Below, one piece after another: positions 1 through 44,668 of a DNA stretch of 44,668 bases; within the stretch, counting starts at the first letter, position 1; each line of letters starts with the position of its first letter. The stretch spans positions 1 through 44,668 of IMG/VR virus record IMGVR_UViG_3300047174_000040. One strand, given 5' to 3'. The position numbers and the translations under genes were made by a program. The notes beneath the pieces are model-generated. The model was not told the DNA's origin and ran no database searches. It saw only the letters and a program-made list of their open reading frames with translations. Source of the DNA: a virus.

Positions 1-49
1 CGCGCCATTGCCCCAAGCCGCGCCATGGGCGGCTTGGGGCAATGGCGCG
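1..49. repeat. Inverted repeat at the tape-measure repeat array
   Basis: Bases 1-21 pair with 29-49 as a perfect 21-bp inverted repeat with a 7-nt loop. The arm continues two more bases if the genome is circularised. The left arm is the last unit of the tandem 18-bp repeat; the right arm (TTGGGGCAATGGCGCGG and flanks) is that unit inverted, yet stays in the same open frame, where it encodes WAAWGNGAA. Confidence 0.8.
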
Positions 50-295
50 GCTGTGCCCGCCCTTCCGGCCGCACAAGCCACTATCGGGGCCACGCAAGCC
101 CCCATCATGGCCCAAACCCCCGCCAGCATCGCAGCGGCAGGGGCCAACACGCAGACCAATACAATTAACGTGGGGCCAACCACGATTAACGCGCCCGGCG
201 CCGATCCCAACGCTATTGCAAACGCTGTGCATTCAAATATGAATGACCATTTAACCGGCGCAATAAATCACATGGCCGATGGGGTTAGCCACTAA
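1..295 (+). CDS. Tail tape-measure protein, C-terminal end (gene continues from 42745..44668)
   Basis: This is the end of the tape-measure gene whose body is at the other edge of the window. The frame enters through the Ala-Ala-Pro-Leu-Pro-Gln repeat that also closes the window. Bases 1-11 equal the last 11 bases of the window. Collapsing that overlap keeps the frame and gives a protein of about 735 aa; plain end-to-end joining would break the frame. After the repeat come an Ala/Pro-rich stretch and an Asn/Thr-rich tail (NTINVGPTTINAPG). The stop TAA at 293-295 overlaps the next ATG by one base. The left edge is a cut, not a start codon. Confidence 0.85.
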   Translation, partial: APLPQAAPWAAWGNGAAVPALPAAQATIGATQAPIMAQTPASIAAAGANTQTNTINVGPTTINAPGADPNAIANAVHSNMNDHLTGAINHMADGVSH

Positions 296-825
296 TGAGC
301 GGCGCGCAATCCAGCCAAGTGGCAGTTTTTGACAGTGAGTTTAATTCGCTGTTTTCAACGGCTGTTTATTTGAAAGCTGACGTTGACCGCAAAATAAAGC
401 TTATGAAGCACCCCATGGAAGACGGGGCGCAATTCTCTGATTTCCGCATTATTGAGCAAGTAAAAATTAAGCTTGACGTAACGTTGAACGCGACCGATTA
501 CGTTGACGTTTACAACGCGATTGTGCAAGTTTTTACCGGGCTAAATTTGGTTAGCGTGCAAACCAAAATTGGTTTGTTTAGCAACATGGCGTTTACCGGC
601 ATTCCGCATAAGGAAGACGTTGCGCACTTCGACACAATTAAATTGACTTTTGACTTTGAGGAAGCGCAGATAGTCGCAACGTCATCGTCACCATTGCCGC
701 AAAGCGCGGTTACGAAAAGCGGCGGTAATATAAACCCGACGAACGCCACGCAAACGCAATCAAATACCGGGACAGAAACCACACAACAATCAAGCGCGCT
801 TTACAGCTTAGTTTATGGCAAATAA
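295..825 (+). CDS. Baseplate/tail-associated protein of unknown fold (176 aa)
   Basis: I do not recognise the family. The ATG shares one base with the tape-measure stop, and the gene lies between tape measure and baseplate plug. That is where contractile phages carry early baseplate or hub-binding proteins, so a baseplate role is inferred from position only. The first 130 residues look folded, with mixed hydrophobic strands. The last 45 residues are rich in Ser, Thr, Asn and Gln (QTQSNTGTETTQQSS), a probable flexible tail. No signal peptide or membrane segment is visible. Confidence 0.7.
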   Translation: MSGAQSSQVAVFDSEFNSLFSTAVYLKADVDRKIKLMKHPMEDGAQFSDFRIIEQVKIKLDVTLNATDYVDVYNAIVQVFTGLNLVSVQTKIGLFSNMAFTGIPHKEDVAHFDTIKLTFDFEEAQIVATSSSPLPQSAVTKSGGNINPTNATQTQSNTGTETTQQSSALYSLVYGK

Positions 826-828
826 CCG

Positions 829-3102: not shown

Positions 3103-4325
3103 GTGACACTCTATATAATTACGTTGAAGAAACCGGGCTAATTGTTCCCGACACGTCAACGCTATTGACTGAAGTGCAAGGCGAATATACCGGCGCTTTC
3201 GGCGCTGGCATGAATACCGACAGCAGCACGCCGCAAGGCATTTTGATTGCAGGCGAAACCGAAGCCCGCGCTGAAGTCGTGCAAAACAATGCGACGGTTG
3301 CAAACCAAATTAATCCGAACGTTGCGGGCGGCGTATTTCTTGACGCTATTGCGGCATTGACTGGCCTTCAGCGAACGCCCGACACGTTCACGTTAGTTGA
3401 AGACGTGTTGCTTACTGGCGCGCAAAATTCGATTGTTCCAGCCGGTGCGCAAGCCGCAACCACGGCGGGCGATCTATTTACGCTTAATGAGCAAGTCGAA
3501 TTAACCGTTTTTAACGGCACGACTTGGACAGGCACGGGCGATTTTACGGCGGTTGAACCGGGGCCGATCCCGTGCGGCGCGGCCGGGGCAGGGCTTACCA
3601 GCGTCGAAACTGACGTGTTGGGTTGGGAAACCGTCAGCAATGCCAACGCGGGCACCTTGGGCACCCTTCAGCAGCTAGACGTTCCGTTTCGCCAGTTGCG
3701 CCGCAATACCCTGGCCCTTCAGGGTGTGGCGCTTATTGAAGCGATCCTTTCCGGCATTAGCAATATTTCGGGCGTGATCGGGCGGCAGGGCCTAGAAAAT
3801 TATACAAATGCTGACGCCACCATTGAAGGCATATTTTTGCTTGCAAATTCGATTTGGGTTTGCGTTGACGGCGGCACGGCACAAGACATTGCAACCGTTC
3901 TATTGCAAAAGAAAAGCATGGGCGCCAATTGGAACGGCGCGCAATCGCTTGCTGTAATTGAACCGGCAAGCGGCCAAGCATATACCGTGCTTTGGGACGT
4001 GCCCACTCTGGTTCCGTTGCTCGCGCAAGTGACAGTTAAGCAAGGCACTTATGTTGGCAATCCGGCGCTTGACGTTAACGCCGCAGTTGTCGCGTTCGCT
4101 GCAAATCAAATTGAAGGCTTGCAAGGCTTTACGGTTGGCGAAAGTGCGTCACCATTTGAAATTGCCGCAGCAATACAGCAACAGTGTCCCGGCATTTATG
4201 TAAAAAGCGTGCAATTGGCGCTTTTCAGCGGTACCCCGACTTATGCGCCCGCTGAAATTGCCATGGCCATAAATCAGAAAGCTACGCTTAATCAAGCGGG
4301 CGTAACCGTTATTCTGGTGACGTAA
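3099..4325 (+). CDS. Baseplate J-like protein
   Basis: A protein of 408 aa, typical for the J family. N-terminal 'TPQGILIAGETEARAEV', 'QINPNVAGGVFLDAIAALTGLQR' and 'VPAGAQAATTAGDLFTLNEQV' are the hallmarks of the J fold, in which a large wedge subunit links the baseplate centre to fibre-bearing arms. A later block (GISNISGVIGRQGLENYTN) belongs to the same family. The C-terminal 100 residues carry the usual bundle that contacts gpI. The gene begins inside the gp25-like stop and its stop (TAATG) overlaps the DUF2612 gene. Confidence 0.88.
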   Translation: MSDTLYNYVEETGLIVPDTSTLLTEVQGEYTGAFGAGMNTDSSTPQGILIAGETEARAEVVQNNATVANQINPNVAGGVFLDAIAALTGLQRTPDTFTLVEDVLLTGAQNSIVPAGAQAATTAGDLFTLNEQVELTVFNGTTWTGTGDFTAVEPGPIPCGAAGAGLTSVETDVLGWETVSNANAGTLGTLQQLDVPFRQLRRNTLALQGVALIEAILSGISNISGVIGRQGLENYTNADATIEGIFLLANSIWVCVDGGTAQDIATVLLQKKSMGANWNGAQSLAVIEPASGQAYTVLWDVPTLVPLLAQVTVKQGTYVGNPALDVNAAVVAFAANQIEGLQGFTVGESASPFEIAAAIQQQCPGIYVKSVQLALFSGTPTYAPAEIAMAINQKATLNQAGVTVILVT

Positions 4326-6658: not shown

Positions 6659-6685
6659 GCGATCCGGCAGGGCTGCAAAAGGAAA

Positions 6686-6724: not shown

Positions 6725-6753
6725 TTGACTCCCCGAACGATCCGGGGTATATA
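6725..6753 (+). promoter_or_regulatory. Sigma70-type promoter with palindromic spacer, drives accessory cassette
   Basis: TTGACT (6725-6730), exactly 17 bases, then TATATA (6748-6753). The spacer is CCCCGAACGATCCGGGG, an inverted repeat (CCCCG...CGGGG) between the -35 and -10 boxes, a likely repressor-binding site. TTGACT is followed by C, so the -35 overlaps a GACTC (GANTC) site, one of only three I found in the window. Confidence 0.75.
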
Positions 6754-6800: not shown

Positions 6801-6980
6801 ATGACCAAGGTGACCCTGAACAACCACGAAATCGACTTCGACGCCGCCGCCAACCTGATGGACGACGAAATCCGCGAAAGCCTGCACGGCAAGTTCTACG
6901 AAGGCCAAGAACAGGAGTTTTTGGACGCCTATGTCACGGCTCACGCGGCCAAATATGATGGCGAGGAGTTCGCGGTATGA
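6801..6980 (+). CDS. Small acidic protein of accessory cassette (59 aa)
   Basis: The start ATG at 6801 has a strong Shine-Dalgarno (AAGGAGATAAGACG). The protein is acidic, with a core 'EIDFDAAANLMDDEIRESLHG' and 'EQEFLDAYVTAHAAKY'. I recall similar small proteins of unknown function in phages and prophages but cannot name one. No membrane segment or signal peptide is visible. It is translationally coupled to the transposase gene by an ATGA overlap. Codon use (GCC, GAC, CTG, AAC) is visibly more GC-rich than in the phage genes around it, suggesting acquisition. Function is unknown; its placement as first gene of a moron-like unit fits an accessory host-interaction role. Confidence 0.8.
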   Translation: MTKVTLNNHEIDFDAAANLMDDEIRESLHGKFYEGQEQEFLDAYVTAHAAKYDGEEFAV

Positions 6981-7642
6981 GCAAGTCCACGATCTCCACC
7001 TTTGAACTGTTCCAGATGTTCCCCGACGCGGAGGCCGCGCGGGTCTACATGGAAGGCAAGCGTTGGCCGGATGGGGCGATCTGCCCCGGCTGCCATGAAC
7101 CGAAGCGGATCACGACCCGCAAGGGCGGCTTCTATCGCTGCAACGCCTGCAAGACGGACTTCACCGTCCGCACGGGAACCATCTTTGAGCGGTCGCATAT
7201 CCCCCTGCACAAGTGGGTTTACGCCATGTATCTGCTCGTCACGGCCCGCAAGGGGATCAGCAGCCTTCAACTGGCGAAGCAGATCGGCGTGACCCAGAAA
7301 TCGGCGTGGTTCATGCTGCAACGGCTCCGCGAGGCGTGCGGCAACGATCCGAGCGTGTTGAGCGGCATCGTTGAGATTGACGAGATGTATGTCGGCGGCA
7401 AGGAAGCCAACAAGCACGAGGGCAAGAAGTTGAAGGCCGGTCGCGGCGCGGTCGGCAAGACCGCCGTCCTCGGAATGCGCGAGCGCGGCGGGCGCACCAA
7501 GGCTGGCGTGGTCGCCAACACTACGGCGAACACCCTGCAACGCGCCGTCCACAACCATGTTGAAGTCGGCTCTACGCTCCACACTGACGAGCATGGGGCC
7601 TATGTTGGACTGGACGGCCTGTTCTACACCCACGAGAGCTAA
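6977..7642 (+). CDS. IS1595-family (ISXO2-like) transposase, C-terminally truncated
   Basis: A protein of 221 aa against about 300 for the family. It has an N-terminal zinc ribbon (CPGC at 36-39, CNAC at 55-58), the 'GTIFERSHIPLHKW' block, an HTH-like segment (SLQLAKQIGVTQKSAWFML) and the first two catalytic acids of the DDE core (D135 in EIDEMYVGG, D204 in HTDEHGAY). The frame stops at 'FYTHES', just before the part that would carry the third catalytic residue, so it should not be competent for transposition. GC-rich codon use matches the preceding gene. No flanking inverted repeats are obvious. It may be a remnant or a domesticated DNA-binding protein. Confidence 0.85.
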   Translation: MSKSTISTFELFQMFPDAEAARVYMEGKRWPDGAICPGCHEPKRITTRKGGFYRCNACKTDFTVRTGTIFERSHIPLHKWVYAMYLLVTARKGISSLQLAKQIGVTQKSAWFMLQRLREACGNDPSVLSGIVEIDEMYVGGKEANKHEGKKLKAGRGAVGKTAVLGMRERGGRTKAGVVANTTANTLQRAVHNHVEVGSTLHTDEHGAYVGLDGLFYTHES

Positions 7643-8525: not shown

Positions 8526-8556
8526 CTTATATCCGCTATCGGCAACCTTAAGTCAA
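8526..8556 (-). promoter_or_regulatory. Promoter for the 7782..8489 gene, -35 inside the polymerase stop
   Basis: On the minus strand TTGACT (8556-8551) is followed after 19 bases by TATAAG (8531-8526); GATATA at 17-base spacing is an alternative -10. The -35 hexamer is the last two codons (Leu-Thr) of the DNA polymerase gene. The start codon of the target gene lies about 40 bases downstream. Confidence 0.55.
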
Positions 8557-10431
8557 CCCCCCTAATTGCAATTGAGCGCCGCGCCGGGTTTGAAAGCCTA
8601 TATCTTCCAAAATGCCAAGGGCGGTTTCTTCATAGCGGCCGTAATCTATATCAGTTGGGAAGCTTGGCGGCAACGTCATAAGCGGTTTGCTGCCATCTGA
8701 CATAGGCACCTTGTTGCCGCTCTTGCAATAGACAATTGAGCCTAAAACATTTTTGGCATAATAGTAACGCACAGTTTTACCTAAGTAACGTCCATCTTTT
8801 TGAGCGCCCCCGGTCACTTTCTGCACTATACAGAACCGCTCTATTCTCTGGCAAGTCTGTATAGTTTCAAGCAACGGCACCCCTTTAGTTATATGCGCAA
8901 TTACTGCGTCAACGCAAATCAACTGTTGCGGGTTTTTAGACAGCGGGGAATTTAGGGCCGAACCGACTTCCGAATATACGCCCTTAACCTTCGTTTTGCC
9001 ATCCGGCTTGACAACTATGTAATTGTTCACGTCACGCGAGTAAATCGCTTGATATTCGGTTTCCTCGGTTTCAAGCTGTGTGCGCAATTCCCAAGCCGCC
9101 CATAGGCTGCAAAATTCGGCATAGCGATCTTGTGGGCATAGCGTCACGATACCGTCAGTGTTCGCGCTAACGACTTCAAACCCGTTCAATGTCAAATTTT
9201 CAATTTGCATGAGTAGCGACAACTGCCCGGTTAGCGTGGTTTGCACCATATTGCGCGGGCTATAAAGCGGGCTGAAAGGATCGGATTTCTTACCGAATGT
9301 GCCATTACTGGCAATCTTCAAGCCATCGGCTTCAGCCTTGCGTCCGGCTTTTTTGGCTGCATATCGTTTATTGACGATGGTTTGCAATGCTTCTAGTTCG
9401 CCCGGAATATCCGAAAAATTGTTTTTAAGAATTAGGTTAGGGTAATAGCCGGTAACGTCACGGTCTAACAATCGCATAGTTTCGGTTGCGCGCAATGCTT
9501 GTGACTTTTCCTGACTATGCAAGCCGCCCATGCCGATTGCATAGCGCCTGCCGCCAATGACGAACGCCCGGCCTTCAATTGTTTTAGGGCAGATAACGTG
9601 ACCGCTTGAACCTACCTCGATTTCGGCTGTACGGATTTCGTTTAGAATTTCGTCATAAGCTGGCGTAACGAACCCGATATAAGGCGGCGGCACATAACAA
9701 AACGAACTGCCCACAAGTTTGGTAAAGTCTCGGCGCTTAGGCGGCTTGCCGGTTATCCGTTCAATTTCGCCACAGATAATTTCCTGTGCAAGCTGTGCGT
9801 CCGAGCGGCTGCGCAAATCCTTGCCGAACTCCTGCGACAAAGCGGCGCGCAAATCTAGGTGCGGTTCCAACTCGCGCAATAGCAATTCGGTATTGTCCAA
9901 ATCGTTGAAATTATACGTCCGAACAATTGCGATTTCTTCGCGCGTCAATTCCTTGTCAGGATGATAAGGCAAATCCTGAATTGTGTGGCAATGCAGCCGG
10001 GCAGCATACGTCTTCAGACTGGCGGTAAGCGGCGCCACATCAAACAAATCAATGTGGTTGCAGCGTAGTGGCCACTTCAAATTATGTGCTTGTAACACGT
10101 CTTTAGGCGTGCCGTTAAATTCGATTAGTTCGGCCGTTGCTCGCTTCATATCGGCAGCGGTCACGCCACGGCACAGCGCGGCGATGGTCATAACGATCAA
10201 ATCGTAACTATTGGAATTGAAGCCGACAAGGCAGAAATTGTCTGCCATCCATTGCAACCAATCGTGCTGTATAGGATCGTTACCGACGCTTTCAAAATAA
10301 GCAAATTTACCCGTTTCAATATTCTTGAAGCCGACAAGCCAATAATTGACAAAGCTTTCAACGTCATAAACGAAACAGCCGCCTTTGAGCGCAACTAGTT
10401 CGTCAGTCGTGTAAAATTGCCGTTCGGCCAC
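8548..10431 (-). CDS. Family B DNA polymerase
   Basis: A protein of 627 aa, GTG start, overlapping the clamp-like gene stop by one base. The 3'-5' exonuclease motifs are intact: Exo I YDVES (D23, E25), Exo II FNSNSYD (D77), Exo III YNFND (Y173, D177). Polymerase motifs: A 'DVTGYYP' (D325), B 'KIASNGTFG' (K372-G380), C 'SANTDG' around 422-427. In motif C the first Asp of the usual DTD is Asn, while the second, catalytic Asp (D426) is kept. At 627 aa it is compact for the family and lacks the insertions of protein-primed enzymes that I would look for. It should copy the phage genome together with the clamp-like, helicase and primase proteins. Confidence 0.88.
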   Translation of the reverse strand: MAERQFYTTDELVALKGGCFVYDVESFVNYWLVGFKNIETGKFAYFESVGNDPIQHDWLQWMADNFCLVGFNSNSYDLIVMTIAALCRGVTAADMKRATAELIEFNGTPKDVLQAHNLKWPLRCNHIDLFDVAPLTASLKTYAARLHCHTIQDLPYHPDKELTREEIAIVRTYNFNDLDNTELLLRELEPHLDLRAALSQEFGKDLRSRSDAQLAQEIICGEIERITGKPPKRRDFTKLVGSSFCYVPPPYIGFVTPAYDEILNEIRTAEIEVGSSGHVICPKTIEGRAFVIGGRRYAIGMGGLHSQEKSQALRATETMRLLDRDVTGYYPNLILKNNFSDIPGELEALQTIVNKRYAAKKAGRKAEADGLKIASNGTFGKKSDPFSPLYSPRNMVQTTLTGQLSLLMQIENLTLNGFEVVSANTDGIVTLCPQDRYAEFCSLWAAWELRTQLETEETEYQAIYSRDVNNYIVVKPDGKTKVKGVYSEVGSALNSPLSKNPQQLICVDAVIAHITKGVPLLETIQTCQRIERFCIVQKVTGGAQKDGRYLGKTVRYYYAKNVLGSIVYCKSGNKVPMSDGSKPLMTLPPSFPTDIDYGRYEETALGILEDIGFQTRRGAQLQLGGLT

Positions 10432-11464: not shown

Positions 11465-12199
11465 TTAAAACGGAATGAAGTCATCGGTAAAGTCTGCGCA
11501 CATTTCCTGCGCATTGACGTTAACCTTTACCGGCACTTTCAGTTTATATTTGCCGCATTGATCGTTCGGCAAATCCATATGCGCGCATTCCAAGCACGAC
11601 ATGCGTTGCGGCGGCATGGCTGGATTTAGCAGCGGGCCGGTGGGCGCCGGGGGTGCGGGTTCCGGCATGTCTTCAATGAGGGTTTCCGCAAGCTTCGCCA
11701 GATCGGCAAGGTTTTGTGCCTGCATTTCGACAACCTTCGTCCGAAACCAGCCTAGCGCCAGTTCGGGCGTAATCACGGGTTCTGCGGCCGGTGCGGCCGG
11801 TGCGGCCCATGACGGCCCGGCGCCGGGAGTTGCGGGCGGCGATGCAGTTACGGTCTGCGTGTCTGCCCTGGGCGGCGTCCATTTGGCTTCAGCCGTGGCC
11901 ACGTCAGCTTCCTCGACACGCGGCGCCTGCGGGCCTGTGGGAGCATTCTTACGCGGTCTGCCGCGTGTGGCTGCAACTGCATCGGCACCTATACGCATTT
12001 CAAGTTCCTTTCGATATATCGCGGTAAATTCTACCGGATATGATATGGTATTTGTTGGCCCTTGCACAGTCACATTATACAATGATTTGGCTTTAACTCG
12101 CAATTCCCGCGTGACGCCGTCGGCTTCAATTGTCACCATGTCCCCAACGTTAATTTGGGACATGGCTGCAGATGCGGCTTCAATGTCAATCATTACCAT
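11465..12199 (-). CDS. Unknown replication-operon protein with AT-hook-like motif and zinc-like tail
   Basis: A protein of 244 aa. Residues 1-70 read like a small beta-barrel (VGDMVTIEADGVTRELRVKA). Residues about 79-85 contain 'RGRPRK', the core of an AT-hook. A Pro/Ala-rich linker follows, then a helical stretch (VVEMQAQNLADLAKLAETLI), and the C-terminus carries CLECAH...CGKY...C ending in 'DDFIPF'. A similar CxxCxH tail ends the nuclease encoded at 13970..14821. The start overlaps the helicase stop. DNA binding is plausible; the precise role is unknown. Confidence 0.7.
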   Translation of the reverse strand: MVMIDIEAASAAMSQINVGDMVTIEADGVTRELRVKAKSLYNVTVQGPTNTISYPVEFTAIYRKELEMRIGADAVAATRGRPRKNAPTGPQAPRVEEADVATAEAKWTPPRADTQTVTASPPATPGAGPSWAAPAAPAAEPVITPELALGWFRTKVVEMQAQNLADLAKLAETLIEDMPEPAPPAPTGPLLNPAMPPQRMSCLECAHMDLPNDQCGKYKLKVPVKVNVNAQEMCADFTDDFIPF

Positions 12200-13821
12200 A
12201 ACGCTTCTACAATGTCAGGGTATTTTTTATTGACGTGCACCTTTATGGATTTGGGCGGGCGCAATTTGTCAACGTGCGCAATTGCGTCGCTTACCGTGGT
12301 GGGCACATAGGCGTCAGGAAACCGGCGCCGCCACCATTCGCGGGCGATCTTGCCACCATAACCGGGGGCTTCAATTGCCACCCATTCAACGAACTGGCGA
12401 AGCCCGCAAACATAGGTTGCGCGGATAACCGGCTTGTCGCCCGGCAACGCATTCTTCTTAATGTGCTGCGTATAATAGACGTGTTCAACGTTGAAGGTTT
12501 CGTAAATCGGCAAGTCGCTGCGCACTAGCACGTCATCAAACACGCCTTTGGTAAACCCAATGCGAGCTTCAAATGGCTGTCCGCAGTCAATACACTCGGT
12601 TGCGCGCGCGTGGTTATACGTGCCGCAAGCCGGGCAAATCTTAACCGGCGCATCGCCTGTGCCTTTGCCTTTCATCTTGGGAATAAAAGGATCGTCAATC
12701 GTGCCCAATCGGCGGGCATTGCCGCCGTGATCGGTCACAAGGCAATTTTCTTTGTGCCAGCCGTTCAACTCATAGGGGCGGGTTCCGCGCCCAAGCATTT
12801 GCACCCATAACCCTGCCGACATGGTTGGGCGAAGCATTATGATGTGATCAATCGGCGGGTGATCTATTCCAGTTGTCGCAATGCCGTTGTTCGTCAACGT
12901 GTCGATTTCGCCACTGAAGAATTGGTTTAGAATTTCGTCACGCTCTTTTCCGGGCATTCTGGAATGAACGGCCTTGGCCTTCAGGCCAGCATAGCGCAGC
13001 ATTTCGGCGGCAATGAGCGCATGGTCAACGCCCGTGCAAAACACAAGGCGGCAATTGCGATCCGCGCCGCGCGCAAGGCTTTCTTGAATTGCGGCCCAAG
13101 TGATTTTTTCGTTGCGCGTGACTTCGTTTAATTGTTTCTCATTGAAGTCGCCCGCTTGCGTGCGCAACTCGGAAATATCGTATTCAGTCTTTACTTTTTT
13201 TGCTACGGGCGGCACTAAATGCCCGTCATCAAACAAGCGGCGAAAGCCTGGAATTGTGCAGATATTGTAAGGGATGTCGGTAAAGATTGGCCCATTAGTA
13301 AGCACGCCCATTCCGGTGCGCCAAATGGTTGCGGTAAAACCAATTACCTTCAGATAAGGATTGATCTGGCGCAATATATTGATGACGCGCATATAGTTCG
13401 CGCTATCGCTATCGCCAATCAAATGCGCCTCATCAACTATCAGGAAATCAATATGGCCGAAAGCGGCAATGATCTTGGCAACAGATTGAACTGACCCGAA
13501 CGTAATGGGGTAATGCAAATCCCGCTGATTAAGCCCGGCTGAATATATGCCAATGGGCGCATGTGCCCACACGCGATGCATTTGCAAATAGTTGTTCTTA
13601 ACCAATTCCTTCACATGCGTAAGGCATAGCACGCGCTGCCCCGGATAAAGTCGCATAACGGCTTCGATAAACGTCGCTTGAACAACGCTTTTGCCCGATC
13701 CCGTTGGCAATGCGATAAGCGGATTGCCTTTATTATTCTGGAAGTAATCAAACAAAGCCGTAATGGCTTCTTCCTGATACCATCGCAAAACGGCCGGTTG
13801 CTTGTATTTGTCTAATATCAT
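12193..13821 (-). CDS. Superfamily 2 DEAH-type helicase with C-terminal zinc finger
   Basis: A protein of 542 aa. The start is set at the ATG in ATGATATTAGAC, which overlaps the stop of the small upstream gene; a frame extension of 11 residues exists but lacks a ribosome-binding site. Visible motifs: Q-like 'LRWYQEEAI', Walker A LPTGSGKS (38-45), DEAH at 130-133, motif III TAT (163-165), and motif VI QMLGRGTR (341-348). A C4 zinc finger follows (CPAC 396-399, C410, C413). The type resembles phage UvsW-like or RecQ-like unwinding enzymes used in origin opening or recombination. Confidence 0.9.
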   Translation of the reverse strand: MILDKYKQPAVLRWYQEEAITALFDYFQNNKGNPLIALPTGSGKSVVQATFIEAVMRLYPGQRVLCLTHVKELVKNNYLQMHRVWAHAPIGIYSAGLNQRDLHYPITFGSVQSVAKIIAAFGHIDFLIVDEAHLIGDSDSANYMRVINILRQINPYLKVIGFTATIWRTGMGVLTNGPIFTDIPYNICTIPGFRRLFDDGHLVPPVAKKVKTEYDISELRTQAGDFNEKQLNEVTRNEKITWAAIQESLARGADRNCRLVFCTGVDHALIAAEMLRYAGLKAKAVHSRMPGKERDEILNQFFSGEIDTLTNNGIATTGIDHPPIDHIIMLRPTMSAGLWVQMLGRGTRPYELNGWHKENCLVTDHGGNARRLGTIDDPFIPKMKGKGTGDAPVKICPACGTYNHARATECIDCGQPFEARIGFTKGVFDDVLVRSDLPIYETFNVEHVYYTQHIKKNALPGDKPVIRATYVCGLRQFVEWVAIEAPGYGGKIAREWWRRRFPDAYVPTTVSDAIAHVDKLRPPKSIKVHVNKKYPDIVEALW

Positions 13822-13973
13822 TGTGCGGCCAATATCTGCCGAACGCGCCAGCAAGCGCGCTTAAATGTTAAAGCTGTGTCAATTCGTTTACCGTCTAAAG
13901 CTATTGACCAATAGCCGTATGGACGCCGCGAACAACGATCTAGCGTATAGCCTTTATAAAAGCGCCGCGTCAT
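13818..13973 (-). CDS. Small basic protein between nuclease and helicase (51 aa)
   Basis: An open frame of 51 codons starting MTRRFYKGYTLDRCSRRPYG and ending ILAAQ. Its ATG overlaps the nuclease stop (ATGA) and its TGA overlaps the helicase start (ATGA), so it fills the gap exactly. That is the main evidence it is real. It is strongly basic (Arg/Lys-rich), has no membrane segment and could bind nucleic acid. No family is recognised. Confidence 0.72.
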   Translation of the reverse strand: MTRRFYKGYTLDRCSRRPYGYWSIALDGKRIDTALTFKRACWRVRQILAAQ

Positions 13974-14821
13974 GCGAAAGCCTCCCATTGTGGGCACGCG
14001 GCCCGGATTGCGTCATGCGGAATAATGGCATTCCAATGATTGCAGCGCCAAGTTTTATCAGGCTGCGGCGCGCTGTGCTTGCAAGATCGGCAATTGACGT
14101 TGACAGGTTCGCCCCGGTGGCAAATGCCAGCCATGGGGCAAAACTTGCAATCCGAATAGGCGTCACTGGCGGCGATCTTGGGCGGCAGATGCACAGCGGC
14201 AATGATATGCGCGGCTTTCTGCGCAAGCTGACGGCCTAGCGTATGGTCTAACTCGACAACCTCAATATACAGTTCGTCAGTGTTTTTGTTGACGGCCATA
14301 TAAATTGCGTAATCAAACCCGAACGCTTCGCCATAAACCGACATTTGCGCAAAATGCTTCGGCTTGCTAAGCTTAACGCCGTCTTTTTTCAGCTTGTCGA
14401 ATGACCGCTGATTATGCGTTTTATATTCGCCTAGAAACTCGGGCGGCAATTCGCCATAGGCGGGCGGCAATGACAACCGTTCGTCAAGCGATCCGCCGTA
14501 AAGCCCCTTGCCTTCAATGCGCCATTGCTTGCCGCTTTCCGGCTTGTGCAATTTGGCGCCGATTAACTCTAGCATTAACTGGAAGCGACTTTCCTCAAAA
14601 TGTCCGCGCTTAAACAGCCGGTGCATTTGCCCGCTTAAATTCTCCCGGTGCATCCATCGGAAAGAATAGGTTAACCGCCGCGCGCAAGTTTCGCCTATTT
14701 CGCTTGCGCCTAAATGATCGCGCGGGCCTTCGTCAAAATGCGCAATGCAAGCGGCGTCAATATCAGCCATTAAACGCGCTGCCAGTTGCTTGCGGTCTGC
14801 CCCGCTTAATTTGATATTCAT
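13970..14821 (-). CDS. Cas4/RecB-like PD-(D/E)XK nuclease with Fe-S-type cysteines
   Basis: A protein of 283 aa. The start at 14821 (MNIKLSG) is chosen because it overlaps the previous stop (ATGA); the open frame extends further but inside the neighbouring gene. The nuclease core shows 'GGSLDERL' (Asp) then 'LGEYKTHN' (E-x-K), preceded by Cys in 'IGETCARRLTYSFRW' and followed by 'CKFCPMAGIC', the four-Cys arrangement of Cas4/AddB-like Fe-S nucleases. After this comes an extra tail 'NCRSCKHS...CNHW...CPQWEAF'. It probably processes DNA ends in recombination or replication with the helicase and the RecA-like NTPase of the same operon. Confidence 0.85.
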   Translation of the reverse strand: MNIKLSGADRKQLAARLMADIDAACIAHFDEGPRDHLGASEIGETCARRLTYSFRWMHRENLSGQMHRLFKRGHFEESRFQLMLELIGAKLHKPESGKQWRIEGKGLYGGSLDERLSLPPAYGELPPEFLGEYKTHNQRSFDKLKKDGVKLSKPKHFAQMSVYGEAFGFDYAIYMAVNKNTDELYIEVVELDHTLGRQLAQKAAHIIAAVHLPPKIAASDAYSDCKFCPMAGICHRGEPVNVNCRSCKHSAPQPDKTWRCNHWNAIIPHDAIRAACPQWEAFA

Positions 14822-23687: not shown

Positions 23688-23857
23688 CCGAAGCCGAACG
23701 CGCGTTGCTGTTGCAGATAGCCAAAACGTTTGTGAATATGTTGCGTCATGACCGCTACAATCGTTTTGACGATGCGTTGACGTTGCAGCGTCGCATTAGT
23801 GACGTTGAACTCGAAAACGATCCCCTTGGGCTTAAGGCTGAATTGGTTAGCCGATGA
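23684..23857 (+). CDS. Small helical protein (57 aa)
   Basis: ATGA-coupled to the membrane protein before it and to the nuclease after it (GATGACAG). The sequence is charged and helical throughout (MTEAERALLLQIAKTFVNML, RISDVELENDPLGLKAELVS). No family recognised. Tight coupling on both sides supports it as a gene. Confidence 0.65.
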   Translation: MTEAERALLLQIAKTFVNMLRHDRYNRFDDALTLQRRISDVELENDPLGLKAELVSR

Positions 23858-29933: not shown

Positions 29934-29940
29934 GAGCAAC

Positions 29941-30423: not shown

Positions 30424-32067
30424 ATGCCCGTATCATTTGACTTTGATTTTTTGAAGCCTGATTATATTAAGGTTTTCAATCATCGGCTGAAGATGGCGGA
30501 ACGGCTGAAAGACGCCAATTATGTTACTGCCATGAAGACGTTTTATCGGCACAATCCAGCGCAATTCATAAACGATTGGGGTTGCACTTTCGACCCGCGC
30601 AACGCGGATATTGGCTTGCCGTCAGTAGTGCCGTTTATTCTTTTCGATAAGCAAGAGGAATGGATTGATTGGCTGTTGCAGCACTGGCGCGACCGTCAGC
30701 CGGGCATTACCGAAAAATCGCGTGACATGGGCCTATCGTGGCTTTCTGTTTCTGTTGCTTGCACGATATGCCTATTTAATCCGGGCGTAGTCATTGGGTT
30801 TGGTTCGCGCAAAGAAGAATACGTTGACAAAATCGGGGCGCCTAAGTCGCTATTTTGGAAGGCGCGCGAGTTTTTGCGCTATGTGCCCCGGCCGTTTCTG
30901 GACGGTTTCAGCCTGAAGCAACACGCGCCTCACATGCGTATAATGTTTCCGGGCACTAATTCGGTTATCACTGGCGAAAGCGGCGACGGCATTGGACGCG
31001 GCGATAGAACGTCAATTTATTTCGTTGACGAAAGCGCCTATATTGAGCGGCCAGAATTGGTAGAAGCTTCGCTTTCGCAAACCACAAATTGCCGTCAGGA
31101 TATATCAAGCGCGCACGGCATGGGAAATCCGTTTGCGCAAAAACGCTTCAGCGGCAAGATTGACGTATTCACATTTAATTGGCGTGACGATCCGCGTAAA
31201 AACCCGGCGCATAAAATACCATATAAAGGCCGCATGGTTACATGGTATGAAAAAATGCAGGAAGAATTAGACCCGGTTACGTTAGCGCAGGAAGTCGATA
31301 TAAATTACAGCGCATCGCTTGAAGGTATTGTTATACCTTCAGCCTGGGTGCAAGCCGCCATCGGGGCAGCGCGCAAGCTTGGCATTGTGCCCACAGGGGG
31401 CAAATTCGGCGCGTTGGATATTGCCGACAGAGGCAAGGATAAATGCGCGATTGCCGCGCGCCATGGAATTGAATTGTTTAGTTTGAAGTCATGGAGCGGG
31501 AAAGACAGCGACACGCTTTACAGTGTCGAAAAGGCTTTCCACTTTGTTGACGAAAACCATTTAGAAGAAATGGCCTATGATGCCGATGGCATGGGCGCTT
31601 TAGTGCGGGGTGACAGCCGCATGATTAACGAACGCCGGGCCAAGAATAGAGAGCGGTCAATTGGCGTTGTGCCGTTCCGGGGTTCGGGCGAAGTCATTGA
31701 CCCTGAAAAAGAAATGATTAAGGGCCGAAAGAATAAAGACTATTTCCAGAACCGAAAGGCGCAAGCGTGGTGGGCGCTGCGGTTGAAGTTCAATAACACT
31801 TTCCGCGCAATCGAAATGCTGCGCACTGGCGAAGTTGCCGAATATGATAAAGATGACTTGATTTCTATTTCGGAAACTTGCCCGGAATTGCAACAGCTAG
31901 TCAGCGAATTAAGCCAGCCAACCTATACGATCAATACGGCGGGCAAAATTCTAATTGACAAAGCGCCCGATAATACCCGTTCCCCTAATAACGCGGACGC
32001 GGTAATGATGGTTTATTCGCCTAAAAAGCGGCACAATGGTTTGTTTTCAGTTGTCGATAAGGGGTAG
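30424..32067 (+). CDS. terL: Terminase large subunit
   Basis: A protein of 547 aa. The ATPase part has a Walker A-like 'EKSRDMGLSW' (97-106) and Walker B 'IYFVDES' (198-204). The nuclease part has 'FGALDIADRGKD' (D331), 'YDADGMG' (D385, D387) and 'NNADAVMMVY' near residue 520, the three acidic patches of the RNase H-like packaging nuclease. It packages DNA into the prohead through the portal and cuts concatemers. It begins right after the small subunit stop (TAAATG). Confidence 0.93.
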   Translation: MPVSFDFDFLKPDYIKVFNHRLKMAERLKDANYVTAMKTFYRHNPAQFINDWGCTFDPRNADIGLPSVVPFILFDKQEEWIDWLLQHWRDRQPGITEKSRDMGLSWLSVSVACTICLFNPGVVIGFGSRKEEYVDKIGAPKSLFWKAREFLRYVPRPFLDGFSLKQHAPHMRIMFPGTNSVITGESGDGIGRGDRTSIYFVDESAYIERPELVEASLSQTTNCRQDISSAHGMGNPFAQKRFSGKIDVFTFNWRDDPRKNPAHKIPYKGRMVTWYEKMQEELDPVTLAQEVDINYSASLEGIVIPSAWVQAAIGAARKLGIVPTGGKFGALDIADRGKDKCAIAARHGIELFSLKSWSGKDSDTLYSVEKAFHFVDENHLEEMAYDADGMGALVRGDSRMINERRAKNRERSIGVVPFRGSGEVIDPEKEMIKGRKNKDYFQNRKAQAWWALRLKFNNTFRAIEMLRTGEVAEYDKDDLISISETCPELQQLVSELSQPTYTINTAGKILIDKAPDNTRSPNNADAVMMVYSPKKRHNGLFSVVDKG

Positions 32068-32072: not shown

Positions 32073-33620
32073 ATGGGATGGTTTAGCCGTAGGAAGCCTG
32101 CCGACGCGCCCCCAGCCCGGCAACCGTTGGGCCTATTCAGCACACAGGGCGACGGCATAGCGCCAAGCGGGGAGCGCCCCTTCGCCAACGGTCTGCCGGT
32201 GCCTGAAATCCCCAAGCCAAGCGTGACCCTTGGCGGCACTGTGGGCATGGATGACTATGACGAACCGGGCGATTTGAAATATAATTTAACGCAAATAAAT
32301 GGCGTGCCTGAAGCGCAATTGGCGTGGTTTGGTTCGCAAACATTCATCGGTTATCAGCTTTGTGCAATTATTGCGCAGCATTGGCTTGTCTATAAAGCTT
32401 GCGCGATGCCGGGCCGTGACGCTGTGCGCAACGGTTATGAATTGTCATTCGATGGCGATACGATACCGGATAAGCTTTTGGCTCGCATTAAGCGCGCTGA
32501 CAAATTTATGAAAATCAAATGGCAGTTGCAAGAGTATTTGTGCAAGGGCAGAATTTTTGGCATTCGGCACGCGTATTACCGGGTTGAAAATGGCGACCCT
32601 GACTATTACGAAAAGCCGTTTAATATCGACAGCGTTACGCCGGGCAGTTACAAGGGCATCGTGCAAATTGATCCTTATTGGATTACGCCCGAAACTACGC
32701 AACGCAATTTGCGCGATCCTTCTGACCCGTCATTTTATGAACCGGATTACTGGCGCGTAAGCGGCAAGCTATTTCACAAATCCCATTTGTGCATTTACAC
32801 AACCGGCCCGGTTGGTGACATTCTCAAGCCCGCCTATCTTTACGGCGGTGTGAGCATTCCGCAGCGTATTTACGAACGTGTTTACGCAGCCGAACGCACG
32901 GCAAACGAAGCGCCGATGCTTACTATGACGAAGCGTTTAAACGTTATGAAAACGGATTTAACGGCGGCGATTGCCAACCCCGATCTATTTGCCGAACGGA
33001 TGGGATGGGCGGCGGCACAACGGGATAACTACGGCACGCGGTTCGTTGGCCCGGACGATGAAATAGAACAATTTGATTTAGGCTTAACCGATCTTGATGG
33101 CGTTATTATGACGCAATACCAGATCGTTGCGGCTGTTGCTGAAGTGCCGGGAACGAAGTTGATGGGCACACAGCCGAAAGGCTTTAACTCAACCGGCGAA
33201 TTTGAAGAAAGTTCCTATCACGAAAGCCTCGAAAGCATAGAGGAAAACGATTTAACGCCGCTGTTAGACGGCCATTATTTTCGTCTAATGGCTTCGCTTG
33301 GCGTTAGCACGATTGGCGTTGAAATATCATGGAACGAACTGGACGCTATGACTGCGCAAGAGCAAGCACAAGTCAACGCTACCAAAATTGCAACAGATGC
33401 CGCCGCGATTGCTTGCGGGGCAATTGAAAGCCAGGACAGCCGCAACCGGCTTAGGAATGACCCGGACAGCGGCTATACTGATCTTGCCCCAGACGTGCCG
33501 GCCATGCCGGATGACCCAGCCGAACCCGGCGCCCCGGCAGCAGGCACGCCAGCCGCCGCACAGGCCGTTGCTGCCACGTTGCCGCACCCTGGCAAGCCGC
33601 ACCCTGAAACCGGGGCGTAG
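32073..33620 (+). CDS. Portal protein (DUF1073 type)
   Basis: A protein of 515 aa. 'QTFIGYQLCAIIAQHWLVYKACAMPGRDAVRNGYEL' in the first quarter, 'DPYWITPE', 'TEFEESSYHES'-like segment at 'FNSTGEFEESSYHESLESIE' and 'PAYLYGGVSIPQRIYERVYA' are the hallmarks of the DUF1073 portal family. The C-terminal 60 residues are a Pro/Ala-rich tail. It would form the dodecameric DNA channel at the head vertex. The gene starts 5 bases after terL. The N-terminal 40 residues are disordered and Pro-rich. Confidence 0.85.
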   Translation: MGWFSRRKPADAPPARQPLGLFSTQGDGIAPSGERPFANGLPVPEIPKPSVTLGGTVGMDDYDEPGDLKYNLTQINGVPEAQLAWFGSQTFIGYQLCAIIAQHWLVYKACAMPGRDAVRNGYELSFDGDTIPDKLLARIKRADKFMKIKWQLQEYLCKGRIFGIRHAYYRVENGDPDYYEKPFNIDSVTPGSYKGIVQIDPYWITPETTQRNLRDPSDPSFYEPDYWRVSGKLFHKSHLCIYTTGPVGDILKPAYLYGGVSIPQRIYERVYAAERTANEAPMLTMTKRLNVMKTDLTAAIANPDLFAERMGWAAAQRDNYGTRFVGPDDEIEQFDLGLTDLDGVIMTQYQIVAAVAEVPGTKLMGTQPKGFNSTGEFEESSYHESLESIEENDLTPLLDGHYFRLMASLGVSTIGVEISWNELDAMTAQEQAQVNATKIATDAAAIACGAIESQDSRNRLRNDPDSGYTDLAPDVPAMPDDPAEPGAPAAGTPAAAQAVAATLPHPGKPHPETGA

Positions 33621-40144: not shown

Positions 40145-41677
40145 GTGTCAATTTCTTTTACGAATTATGTCGAAATCACTTCTGGCGTTTCTGGCGCGGG
40201 GCAGGTTCGTGACCGCGAATTGATTACGCGCGTGTTTTCAATCAATCCGCTTATTCCGGCAAATTCGTTTGCCGAATTTGAAAACGCCGCTGACGTTGGC
40301 ACGTATTTTGGCACGACTTCGGAAGAATATAAGCGCGCCGCTTATTACTTCGGTTTTATCAGCAAACAAAATTTGCAGCCGCAGAAAATCAGTTTTGCGT
40401 CATGGGTTGAAGCGGCCCGCGCGCCCTTCGTCATTGGCGACGGCGGGCAGACCGAAACGCTTGCGCAGTTGAAGGCGATTACAACCGGGTATCTAAACCT
40501 GACGCTTGGGGCTGCAACTGCGCAGATTGGGCCGCTTAACCTTTCGACGGCAACCACGCTTGCCGGAGTTGCCGCACTTATTCAAACTGCTGTGCAAGCT
40601 GGCAATGCCGACCCGCAATGGGCCGGGGCGCTGGTGACGTATAACGCAACCGGCCCGTTGGGCGCCAATTTTGAACTTCAGGGCGCCGTTGCCGGGGCCG
40701 GGGCCTTGGCCATCCTGCCGGTAACAGGCGGCGGGGCTGACATTGGCGCAGCCTTGGGTTGGGAAAGTGCCCTTGCTGTAGTGTCGCAAGGTTCGGCCGC
40801 AATGACCCTAACGCAGACCATGAACGCCAGTGTTGCCGGTTCCAATAACTTCGCTTCGTTCTGCTACATTCCGACGCTTGACGAAGCACAGATTTTGGAA
40901 TTGCAGACTTGGCAGGGCGGCTACAATCTGGATTTCATAGGCGAATATGCCGTGACAGCCGATATTGCCACGGAAGTTAGCGCGGCGATTATTGCTACGC
41001 CGGGCGGCGCCATGACGTTGACGGTTCCGGGCAATACAGATTACCCGGAAATGATGCCCGGCATGATTATGGCCGCGACCGACTACACGAAGCCGGGTGC
41101 TTCACAAAATTATATGTTTCAGCAAACGGCCGGGCAGATTGCCACGGTTACCGATGACGCAGACCAAAAAGCCTATGACAATTTGCGCGTCAATTACTTC
41201 GGCCAAACGCAGCAAGCCGGGGCGCAAATCGTATTCTATCAGCGCGGCGTTTTGACTGGAAACGCGCAATCGCCCTCAGACATGAACGTTTACGCCAATG
41301 AAATTTGGTTTAAAGGCGTTATGGGCGATGCCTTCATGTCGGTATTGCTTGCCGATAGCGAAATCTCCGCGAACCAATCCGGCCGGGCAACCGTGCTTGC
41401 GATCATTGACAGCGTAATTGCGCAGGGTATTGACGCGGGCGTTATCAGCGTTGCCAATCTTCCGGCGCTTACGCAGGCGCAAATCGTAGCAATTACGAAC
41501 CTTTCCGGTTCGGCTACGGCATGGCGGCAGGTTGCGGCCCTTGGCTACTGGCGCACGATGCAATTTAATACCATTGTGACGGAAGACGGTCGCACCGAAT
41601 ATCAGGCCGTTTACACGCTGATTTACACGAAAAATAATGCAATCCGCAAAGTTATCGGAACGCACAACCTGATTTAA
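40145..41677 (+). CDS. Tail sheath protein, DUF3383 type
   Basis: A protein of 510 aa, GTG start. DUF3383 hallmarks: an early 'FAEFENAADVGTYFGTTSEEYKRAAYYFGF', 'ATTLAGVAALIQTAVQAGN' and a late 'TVLAIIDSVIAQGIDAGVIS'. In related contractile phages this protein forms the tail sheath. The middle (residues about 150-230) is an Ala/Gly-rich insert of a beta domain. Size, position before tube and baseplate genes and the presence of gp25 and J support contraction. No GANTC in the gene. Confidence 0.78.
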   Translation: MSISFTNYVEITSGVSGAGQVRDRELITRVFSINPLIPANSFAEFENAADVGTYFGTTSEEYKRAAYYFGFISKQNLQPQKISFASWVEAARAPFVIGDGGQTETLAQLKAITTGYLNLTLGAATAQIGPLNLSTATTLAGVAALIQTAVQAGNADPQWAGALVTYNATGPLGANFELQGAVAGAGALAILPVTGGGADIGAALGWESALAVVSQGSAAMTLTQTMNASVAGSNNFASFCYIPTLDEAQILELQTWQGGYNLDFIGEYAVTADIATEVSAAIIATPGGAMTLTVPGNTDYPEMMPGMIMAATDYTKPGASQNYMFQQTAGQIATVTDDADQKAYDNLRVNYFGQTQQAGAQIVFYQRGVLTGNAQSPSDMNVYANEIWFKGVMGDAFMSVLLADSEISANQSGRATVLAIIDSVIAQGIDAGVISVANLPALTQAQIVAITNLSGSATAWRQVAALGYWRTMQFNTIVTEDGRTEYQAVYTLIYTKNNAIRKVIGTHNLI

Positions 41678-42193: not shown

Positions 42194-42194
42194 C

Positions 42195-42638
42195 ATGGCC
42201 GACTTTCTGAAGGCAAAAGAAGTCACGGTTACTTCGCGTGACGGGGAAGAATTGGTTTATACGATTTCGCGCTTTCCGGCTGTGGCCGGGCGCGAAATTG
42301 TTGCCAATTACCCTTTAACGGCGATCCCGAAAGCTTCAGATTACGGTGCAAATGAAGCCATCATGCTGAAGCTTATGTGCTACGTTGGAAAGCAAATTGG
42401 CGACAACGTTGTGCCGTTGAAAACGAAGGCGCTAGTTGACAATCATGTGCCCGATTTTGAAACTTTGGTTAAGCTTGAAATCGAAATGATGCGGTATAAT
42501 ACAAGTTTTTTTCAGGACGGGGTAGCCTCGACTTTCTTAAGCGGTATCGTTCGGAAAGCCCTAGCGTCAGCTACCCCACAATTGACTATTTTATTGCAGC
42601 CATTATTGGAGCGGATAAAGCAACGCTCTACGAATTGA
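42195..42638 (+). CDS. Tail assembly chaperone, unshifted form
   Basis: A protein of 147 aa one base after the tube gene. Residues 1-105 are common to both forms (MADFLKAKEVTVTSRDGEEL ... MMRYNTSFF). At TTT-TTT (42507-42512) a -1 slip leads into the second frame. Without the slip the protein continues QDGVASTFLSGIVRKALASA to the TGA at 42636. Position between tube and tape measure and the overlapping second frame are those of lambda G/GT-type chaperones. Confidence 0.82.
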   Translation: MADFLKAKEVTVTSRDGEELVYTISRFPAVAGREIVANYPLTAIPKASDYGANEAIMLKLMCYVGKQIGDNVVPLKTKALVDNHVPDFETLVKLEIEMMRYNTSFFQDGVASTFLSGIVRKALASATPQLTILLQPLLERIKQRSTN

Positions 42639-42748
42639 AAACCGTTTACGATCTTGAAGACGCGTTTGATTTATTTGAAGTTATTGCAACTAATCGCTTC
42701 AATGAATATCTAGCTATTGAACATGCCAAAAAGAAGGGCGGCAAGTGA
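42195..42748 (+). CDS. Tail assembly chaperone, -1 frameshift fusion form (184 aa)
   Basis: After 106 codons the -1 frame reads SGRGSLDFLKRYRSESPSVS, then a helical part (TLYELKTVYDLEDAFDLFEV; TNRFNEYLAIEHAKKKGGK) to TGA at 42746. The second frame has no usable start of its own in its upstream part and is open from the slip site on. This matches the GT protein of lambda-type tails. The stop overlaps the tape-measure GTG. Confidence 0.75.
42506..42577 (+). promoter_or_regulatory. Programmed -1 ribosomal frameshift signal
   Basis: Slippery heptamer T TTT TTT at 42506-42512 in the right phase for the 0 frame (codons 42507 and 42510). Six bases later GGGGTAGC (42519-42526) pairs perfectly with GCTACCCC (42570-42577), an 8-bp GC-rich stem closing a 43-nt loop. 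The loop can form an inner CTTTC/GAAAG pairing (42532-42536, 42554-42558). Confidence 0.85.
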
Positions 42749-44668
42749 GCATTCTTGACACCTTCACAATTCTTTTCGATAGCAATGCCGACAAGGTTAG
42801 AAAGGGCGTTGACGAAGCTGACGCCGCAAGCAAAAAGCTTGTTACTGATTTAGACGCAACCGGCAATGCCGGGGCTGCGGCGGCAGAACATATTGAACAT
42901 GCCAATAGCAAGCTTGCCGAAAGCTTTGACGTAATTAAAGAACACGCCGGGGAAATGGCTTCCCGGCTTATTGAACATGCGTTGGAAGTTGCGGCAGCGT
43001 TTCAAGCGTTGTTTGCAGTTGAGCGGCTAGTTGATAACTTTTTTGAAACTGCCGAACAATCCGACCAATTGGGCGAACGCGCAAAAGAATTAGGCGTTCA
43101 AACCGAACAACTAGACGCCTGGGGTAACGCTGCAAAACGGGTTGGCGGGTCTGCCGAAGGGTTCGGGCAAAGCCTGCTAAACGTCAACCGCCAAATGGCG
43201 CGAATGGAGGCAACCGGCAAAAGCCGCATTCTGCCGTTCTTTAAAGAACTTGGCGTATCTATGACCGATACGCACGGCAAAATCGTTCCGCTAATGGATT
43301 TGCTGCCCAAGCTGGCGGCGGCAACCGAAGGCAAGAGCAAGCAAGAAACTGCGGGCGCCCTTCGCGGCATCGGCTTTGATGAAGGCACCATACGGCTGTT
43401 ACAGCGCGGCGGTGCAGAAGTCGATAAGCTTATTGCCCGGCAAAAACAACTCGGTCTAGTGACCGCTGAAGACGCGGAAACAGCCGAAAAATTCAATATC
43501 GAATGGGATGACGTTAAGCAAGTTTTCCACTCGGTCACAGTGGAACTTGACACCTATTTTTTGCCGATACTTGAAGACGTATTGGACGCGGTAGAAACGC
43601 TAATTGAATTTTTGCGCGACCACAAAGATTTGGTTGTGGGGTTCTTTATCGCGGCAGGCGCGGCGGCGCTATGGGCGGCGGATGCGTTCGGTTTGCTCGA
43701 CATTGTGCTTGCGATCTTAACCAGTCCAATTACGTTGCTAGTTGCCGCTGTGGCTGGCGTGATTGCCGTTTTTGCGTTGCTATACGATGATATTATGGCC
43801 TTTTCAAAAGGCAATAAGTCAGTTATTGGCGAACTGGCAAAATCTTGGCCCATCGTTGGCGAGATTGTGCGCGGCATTATTACCGTGTTTGCAGATCTTA
43901 AAGAGGCCGCAATTGAAACGTTTGTTGCAATTCTAAATTGGATTAAGAAAATTCCGCAAGGGTTCGCGGAATGGGAAGAAATCTTTACCTATATCAGCGG
44001 CGTAATATCGGCTTTCGCGAAACACGTTGCGGCTGTGCTTGAAGAATGGGTACCCGGCATCGGCGCTGTAATGGACGATATTGCTGCTGTATTTAAAGCC
44101 TCGGTGCCCGTGTGGGCAGCGATTTTTACCGGCCAATTTGAAATTATAAAAGGCATATTTATTGCATTTTTTGATTTTACTAAGGCTGTCTTTGTGTTGC
44201 TCGCTGAAATTGTAGTTGATCCGATCCATGCTTTTCAGCATTTCGGCGCGGCTGTCATGGCAATCATTCAACAGTTAATTGGCGCATTTCCGCATGTGAC
44301 CGATGCTTTTAAAGACGTTGGCACGGCATTCGCTGCAATCGGCCAAAACATAATTAAGCTATGGCAAGATATTGAAAATACAGTGCTTGGCGTCGTGAAC
44401 AAAGTCACGGGAGCCATAAGCACGGTTAAGGGGTTCGTGGGCGGCGCCTGGACAGCCGTAGTCAACCGAATTGAACATAACGTTACCGCCAACGTGCCCG
44501 ATCCTACGCAACAGCCTGGGGGTGTTGGCGTGACGCCTGGAAGCCCGGTTGCAAGGCAGGTTGAAGCTGACCAAAAGGCGACAGCCGCGCCATTGCCCCA
44601 AGCCGCGCCATTGCCCCAAGCCGCGCCATTGCCCCAAGCCGCGCCATTGCCCCAAGCCGCGCCATTGC
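42745..44668 (+). CDS. Tail tape-measure protein (continues at 1..295)
   Basis: GTG start in the GTGA overlap with the frameshift product. The open frame runs off the window and continues at base 1. Residues 1-130 are helical coiled coil (FDSNADKVRKGVDEADAASK...). About 130-270 form a lambda-like tape-measure block (GVQTEQLDAWGNAAKRVGGS; LVTAEDAETAEKFNIEWDDV). Then come hydrophobic segments (LVVGFFIAAGAAALWAADAF, LVAAVAGVIAVFALLY) and long amphipathic helices. The C-terminus is a Pro/Ala repeat. Total length about 735 aa, short for the family, implying a short tail of roughly 110 nm if 1.5 angstrom per residue applies. Confidence 0.9.
   Translation, partial: MSILDTFTILFDSNADKVRKGVDEADAASKKLVTDLDATGNAGAAAAEHIEHANSKLAESFDVIKEHAGEMASRLIEHALEVAAAFQALFAVERLVDNFFETAEQSDQLGERAKELGVQTEQLDAWGNAAKRVGGSAEGFGQSLLNVNRQMARMEATGKSRILPFFKELGVSMTDTHGKIVPLMDLLPKLAAATEGKSKQETAGALRGIGFDEGTIRLLQRGGAEVDKLIARQKQLGLVTAEDAETAEKFNIEWDDVKQVFHSVTVELDTYFLPILEDVLDAVETLIEFLRDHKDLVVGFFIAAGAAALWAADAFGLLDIVLAILTSPITLLVAAVAGVIAVFALLYDDIMAFSKGNKSVIGELAKSWPIVGEIVRGIITVFADLKEAAIETFVAILNWIKKIPQGFAEWEEIFTYISGVISAFAKHVAAVLEEWVPGIGAVMDDIAAVFKASVPVWAAIFTGQFEIIKGIFIAFFDFTKAVFVLLAEIVVDPIHAFQHFGAAVMAIIQQLIGAFPHVTDAFKDVGTAFAAIGQNIIKLWQDIENTVLGVVNKVTGAISTVKGFVGGAWTAVVNRIEHNVTANVPDPTQQPGGVGVTPGSPVARQVEADQKATAAPLPQAAPLPQAAPLPQAAPLPQAAPL
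44584..44668 (+). repeat. 18-bp tandem repeat at the contig end (AAPLPQ)n
   Basis: The 18-bp unit GCCGCGCCATTGCCCCAA starts at 44584, 44602, 44620 and 44638, with a 13-base partial fifth copy at 44656 that joins the copy at base 1. It is in frame with the tape-measure gene (six codons per unit). A contig break inside identical repeats means copy number is uncertain. Confidence 0.9.

Follow-up and report, generated by a model that had tools for sequence, protein, structure and literature searches.

The virus record IMGVR_UViG_3300047174_000040 raises the question of what has removed almost every GANTC from its genome. GANTC is the target of the CcrM methylase of alphaproteobacteria, and HinfI recognises the same word. 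The window analysed here is the whole virus record (44,668 b), and it contains exactly three GANTC sites, two of them in coding sequence and the third at a promoter-like element.

6727..6731, + strand, surviving GANTC (GACTC), overlapping the -35-like TTGACT of the promoter of an AcrIC5 cassette
29357..29361, + strand, surviving GANTC (GAGTC), inside open reading frame (ORF) 29021-29458
30127..30131, + strand, surviving GANTC (GACTC), inside ORF 29932-30423, upstream of the putative large terminase gene

The initial annotation had given this count and all three positions exactly. Its figure of about 170 sites expected at random agrees with base composition alone, which predicts 174, but is too high once sequence context is considered, as second-order and third-order Markov models predict 101 and 82 sites, respectively. 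When codons were shuffled synonymously across 38 kb of coding sequence, 74.9±6.1 sites were expected and 2 observed; a stricter shuffle, with the first codon base and the junction fixed, still predicted 24.5±3.6. Among all 256 XYNZW patterns, GANTC has the lowest ratio of observed to expected counts (0.04), and the next-lowest is 0.53. Neighbouring words and GATC had been described as common, and they are: none of the twelve one-substitution neighbours of GANTC is clearly depleted (the lowest stands at about 0.85), and GATC is abundant (136 observed versus 116 expected).

The deficit can also be read from codon choice. For Ser codons after Asp or Glu, where TCN would create GANTC, AGY and TCN are used 53 and 2 times, compared with 268 and 438 times elsewhere (P=5e-19). 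Similarly, GA-ending codons before an NTC codon (Ile, Leu, Val, Phe) number 0 of 30 (P=0.006), and Asp/Glu-Ser pairs are themselves somewhat rare (55 versus 75 expected). Such a deficit might arise indirectly from base composition, biased mutation or a general lack of palindromes, in keeping with the low pooled count of six-base palindromes (0.64 of expectation) and with the partly compositional nature of the raw deficit, in which the expectation falls from 174 to 82. However, GANTC lies far below all other palindromes with four specified bases except GTAC, its neighbours are normal, synonymous choice after Asp and Glu is strongly biased and many related phages are normal, which makes this explanation extremely improbable; composition as sole cause is refuted by the codon shuffles, the 256-pattern comparison and the Ser codon bias. 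Collectively, these results exclude chance and base composition as the sole source of the deficit and indicate that selection against GANTC is site-specific, visible at the synonymous level and clade-wide. The strong selection suggested at first reading is thus borne out by the Markov, codon-shuffle and 5-mer comparisons alike.

A second word, GTAC, had been overlooked by the initial annotation. It occurs 6 times in the window versus 56 expected, and synonymous codon shuffling predicts 71±7 sites where 3 are observed.

4231..4234, + strand, surviving GTAC, with further sites at 8106, 9629, 20621, 21949 and 44050

Both GANTC and GTAC are type II recognition palindromes (of HinfI and RsaI, respectively), and GTAC is known as the RsaI site (PMC6256690). 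Single type II sites are also scarce in the window, with observed/expected counts of 0/20 for CCGCGG, 0/7 for GTCGAC, 4/46 for GCCGGC and 2/17 for RGATCY. Nevertheless, in a comparison set of 194 sequences the median six-base ratio is 0.76 and others show equal or stronger avoidance, so that avoidance of six-base palindromes is not special to this genome. Across 143 phage sequences, 10 have lost both GANTC and GTAC, 18 and 5 have lost a single one of the two and 110 have lost neither (odds ratio 12, P=3e-5), while losses of GATC, GGCC and CGCG show no association with GANTC loss. One further record, UViG_3300017412_000002, avoids three words together (GANTC 3/29, GTAC 1/26, GATC 1/27).

To place the depletion among related phages, we compared the window with a phage collection, in which no relative was found at the DNA level. 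Homologues of most window genes, many at 45-80% protein identity, are present in the closest relative, R1 (UViG_3300047495_000021), whose whole 44.8 kb is free of both GANTC and GTAC. GANTC counts over the full records of other relatives are as follows: UViG_3300029910_000049 (2/69), UViG_3300047172_000008 (22/96), UViG_3300017408_000004 (4/108) and UViG_3300017446_000003 (2/121). In G008 (UViG_3300037602_000058), the full record has 0 of 74 expected GANTC, whereas GTAC and the tested six-base type II sites are near expectation, almost all of the other type II sites tested being kept; CTNAG is low there too (8/25). Of the 85 phages placed in a polymerase tree, 20 are GANTC-low and about 8 changes are needed overall, and in the 98%-supported clade containing the window 13 of 15 members are GANTC-low. 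In the comparison with related phages that the initial annotation had proposed, most other portal or polymerase relatives have normal GANTC. GANTC depletion marks an old polymerase clade.

We then compared phages with known hosts, several of which were scored on partial sequence (30-40 kb). GANTC is avoided by the Sphingomonas phages Birtae (8/116) and Kimi (1/99), Paracoccus phage vB_PmaS-R3 (0/54), Sinorhizobium phage RHph_X2_24 (3/148), Pelagibacter phage HTVC019P (1/50) and Variovorax phage VCLv21 (0/91 in 45 kb); all but VCLv21 (five phages) have alphaproteobacterial hosts. GTAC is likewise missing from Birtae (0/37), Kimi (0/68), vB_PmaS-R3 (2/129) and VCLv21 (0/82). In contrast, RHph_X2_24 purges GANTC but not GTAC, and HTVC019P also lacks GATC while its GTAC is near normal (85/103). 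Eight phages of alphaproteobacterial hosts keep GANTC at about 0.63-0.96 of expectation, namely Carli (56/89), RcWhiteOak (90/99), RHph_Y60 (144/160), phiCbK (48/63), HTVC010P (60/63), 16-3 (57/89), 7-7-1 (83/126) and DSS3phi2 (160/166), and SIO1 is intermediate (35/78, 0.45). With eight named non-avoiders, GANTC avoidance is not general among phages of CcrM hosts.

Phages of one strain differ in the words they have lost. Carli, Birtae and Kimi share the host strain Sphingomonas LR55; in the sequence read, GTAC is gone in all three and GANTC in two. Because all three lack GTAC, a GTAC restriction system is predicted in or near Sphingomonas LR55. On Variovorax CL14, VCLv21 lacks GANTC and GTAC and VCLv11 lacks GATC. 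Since the LR55 and CL14 phages differ in this way on the same strain, the missing words seem to record the host history of a lineage and not merely the isolation host. GATC was wholly absent from the stretches read of two Variovorax phages, VCLv11 (0/71) and BAPIC_0004 (0/55), and Acinetobacter phage Loki (39 kb) lacks GGCC (0/146) and CGCG (0/180).

The reading that we favour, at a probability of roughly 0.6, is that a lytic, methylase-free phage of probably alphaproteobacterial hosts evades type II restriction through site loss. The host range of the lineage would include type II restriction enzymes that cut unmethylated GANTC or GTAC. Long selection would have removed GANTC from the lineage and GTAC from a narrower group within it. 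The likely hosts would be alphaproteobacteria in which CcrM methylates chromosomal GANTC, some strains also having an RsaI-type GTAC system, and a phage with no recognisable DNA methylase would escape by leaving almost nothing to cut. We infer a GANTC-cutting restriction enzyme as the agent of selection. Restriction is favoured because the same genomes have also been purged of GTAC, another type II word, and because six-base palindromes are low. The initial annotation had offered CcrM methylation, GcrA binding or a HinfI-type enzyme as the cause; the last fits best, while CcrM or GcrA alone is insufficient because GANTC-rich phages grow on alphaproteobacterial hosts. Furthermore, an almost complete lack of orthodox type II sites is characteristic of phages that are non-temperate (PMC6286503).

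The gene content bears on the supposed lytic and methylase-free habit.

8548..10431, - strand, DNA polymerase (phrog_1252), the gene used for the clade tree
12193..13854, - strand, superfamily II (SF2) DNA helicase, not a restriction subunit
13970..14959, - strand, Cas4-domain exonuclease
17860..20208, + strand, DNA primase/polymerase
23854..24342, + strand, VRR-NUC / Holliday junction resolvase-like nuclease
30424..32067, + strand, ORF of 547 aa, putative large terminase from gene order (it adjoins the portal gene), with no Pfam match
32073..33620, + strand, portal protein (Phage_portal_3)
40145..41677, + strand, tail-sheath-like protein, with tblastn matches to an annotated tail sheath

The replication module comprises the DNA polymerase, a processivity factor, the SF2 helicase, the Cas4-type exonuclease, a single-strand binding protein, a Sak4-like protein and the primase. 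The structural families are E217-like and, together with the tail-sheath-like protein, indicate a contractile-tailed phage as judged from protein similarity. No integrase family was matched among the scanned window proteins, and the phage is apparently lytic (non-temperate). For methylases, the window gave no N6_N4 match and no methylase family in Pfam scans. Over the 31 records scanned, the N6_N4 family matched only RcWhiteOak, RHph_Y60 and BAPIC_0004, all GANTC non-avoiders, and it matched neither the window nor the 17 IMG/VR relatives or named avoiders scanned; none of the scanned records matched the RAMA domain, which the Caulobacter control does contain. Some phages encode GANTC methylases that are not related to CcrM (PMC7139368), so a missing family match does not prove that a methylase is absent. 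A trade-off in which phages either avoid or methylate the word was considered, but among the alphaproteobacterial phages scanned only two carry N6_N4 (RcWhiteOak and RHph_Y60), too few for the claim.

Several observations weigh against evasion of restriction. None of the candidate hosts yielded an enzyme that cuts GANTC. VCLv21, purged of both words, has a betaproteobacterial host, and most of the relatives that the terminase gene has in named genomes are beta- or gammaproteobacterial prophages in which GANTC is normal. The association between GANTC and GTAC loss, significant on raw counts, was unconfirmed on phylogenetically independent pairs and was rejected as independent evidence. G008, purged of GANTC yet retaining nearly all other tested type II sites, is unpredicted by a general restriction pressure. 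Moreover, SAR11, the host of depleted pelagiphages, has no known restriction-modification (R-M) system (PMC9516812).

Some of these observations fit an escape from CcrM or GcrA itself, in which late or partial CcrM methylation, or the binding of GcrA or a methylation-sensitive protein, would interfere with transcription or replication of the phage, or phage DNA carrying the CcrM mark would itself become a target. CcrM is conserved in most alphaproteobacteria and would exert constant pressure; G008 and RHph_X2_24 purge GANTC but not GTAC, G008 keeping nearly all other tested type II sites; and depleted pelagiphages grow on hosts with no known R-M system (PMC9516812). In RHph_X2_24, the gene at 47441-47950 is annotated as encoding a GcrA-like cell cycle regulator. 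However, this escape would leave the loss of GTAC unexplained and would have to accommodate the eight GANTC-keeping phages, among them Carli, which shares its strain with Birtae and Kimi, and the growth of VCLv21 on a betaproteobacterium. We regard it as possible but unlikely. The GANTC-only purge of G008 and the depleted pelagiphages on hosts with no known R-M system nevertheless leave room for a CcrM-linked pressure. Tentatively, and with little more than a slim chance of being right, a CcrM-coupled defence may be proposed, in which lone GANTC endonucleases, or another effector, would use host CcrM methylation as the antidote.

VCLv21 bears on the breadth of the host range. If phages moved between species with differing R-M systems, GANTC and GTAC would be lost as common short targets, and the main host might not be alphaproteobacterial. 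VCLv21 has lost both words and most six-base palindromes (0.35), VCLv11 has lost GATC instead on the same Variovorax strain, and the terminase-gene relatives are beta- and gammaproteobacterial prophages. However, VCLv21 is the exception among the beta- and gammaproteobacterial phages with names that were tested, the others having kept GANTC, and the only other DNA-level relative of VCLv21 in the collection is Birtae, a Sphingomonas phage low in both words. The idea that VCLv21 makes the clade betaproteobacterial is weakened accordingly, and we consider movement between species a distinctly improbable explanation.

The loss of both words together in the closest group could also reflect a phage-encoded nuclease whose targets in host DNA are GANTC and GTAC, the phage genome being purged for immunity. 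A VRR-NUC gene is common to the window, R1, L009, Birtae and VCLv21. However, Loki, with normal GANTC and GTAC, has a VRR-NUC gene too, so this gene is not a likely cause of GANTC loss. In addition, no restriction endonuclease family was matched in the window scans, and many GANTC-low relatives retain GTAC. A phage nuclease is thus very improbable.

An alphaproteobacterial host is likely for the window phage. No polymerase relative was found in 385 alphaproteobacterial genomes, in a search run without a positive control, and the host could not be assigned by this route. Relatives of the IS1595 transposase occur in 59 of 385 alphaproteobacterial versus 17 of 369 gammaproteobacterial genomes, a weak signal; with relatives in both classes, at best 68% (partial) and 60%, the transposase is indecisive, and a plasmid match sought for it was not found. 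Rhodobacter blasticus 28/5, the source of RsaI, methylates GANTC and GTAC (PMC6256690), and Sphingomonas AAP5 methylates GANTC (PMC8067484); because of this, alphaproteobacteria of these orders are plausible hosts.

The transposase gene belongs to an acquired cassette (6725-7642), consisting of the promoter-like element, an AcrIC5 homologue and then the apparently shortened IS1595-type transposase gene.

6725..6753, + strand, promoter-like element, TTGACT (6725-6730), a 17 nt spacer (CCCCGAACGATCCGGGG) and TATATA, a consensus match only
6801..6980, + strand, AcrIC5 anti-CRISPR homologue, 59 aa, matching PDB 7yhr over its full length (residues 1-59, E=1.3e-20) and Pfam PF22147 above cut-off (E=1.5e-17)
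6977..7642, + strand, IS1595-type (ISXO2-like) transposase ORF, 221 aa, with homologues mostly of at least 300 aa

On these matches the product of 6801-6980 is classed as an AcrIC5 anti-CRISPR homologue, and the transposase ORF is apparently shortened at its C terminus. No inverted repeats were found over 6600-7800, and no homologue of the insert was found in R1. The initial annotation had placed one GANTC inside the -35 of the cassette promoter. The site at 6727 does overlap a -35-like TTGACT, but the element is absent from the list of the automatic promoter scan. A functional GANTC in the anti-CRISPR promoter is unsupported, because the regions upstream of other AcrIC5 homologues do not have the site in common with it. 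The simplest reading is that the GANTC at 6727 is one site tolerated in a recently gained cassette. AcrIC5-like proteins occur in at least 34 viral contigs at 46-73% identity, and Microviridae records from gut samples are among the matches in the phage collection, a range broader than expected for an anti-CRISPR.

Restriction-site avoidance has long been known, and the window phage is a very clean new case. It shares with the non-temperate double-stranded DNA phages of PMC6286503 a near-complete, exact-word loss of type II palindromes and the lack of a recognisable methylase, and may share their lytic habit; in contrast, the host enzyme is only presumed for the window phage, and neither GANTC nor GTAC is named in the main text of that paper. 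Depletion of GANTC is already published for one set of phages, the pelagiphages of the Autographivirinae (PMC9516812), in which the same word is lost, patchily by phage clade, with no known host restriction enzyme; they are another phage type, and HTVC019P lacks GATC with GTAC near normal. The two words purged from the window are also missing in Birtae, Kimi, vB_PmaS-R3 and VCLv21, but their hosts are known. Birtae and VCLv21 encode homologues of the window replication genes, although the Birtae polymerase does not match that of the window and the VCLv21 head and tail genes have no match to it. Rhodobacter blasticus 28/5 methylates the two missing words via M.RsaII (GANTC) and M.RsaI (GTAC) (PMC6256690); it is a bacterium, not shown as host of the window phage, and methylates two further motifs. 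Within the open-access subset of the literature, we found neither the GANTC and GTAC pair, seen here in phages of two alphaproteobacterial orders and an uncultured group, nor the same-strain contrast.

Collectively, the results add further phage groups, beyond pelagiphages, in which the CcrM word is almost entirely lost, here together with the RsaI word. If CcrM-coupled defence were true, an essential cell-cycle methylase would at the same time serve as the protecting partner in a restriction system, and phages like G008, with no GANTC but nearly all other tested type II sites, would carry its signature. Carli versus Birtae and Kimi on one Sphingomonas strain, together with the GANTC-only purge of G008, provide natural contrasts that make the use of CcrM sites in alphaproteobacterial defence directly testable, and missing words may help to guess the hosts of uncultured phages.

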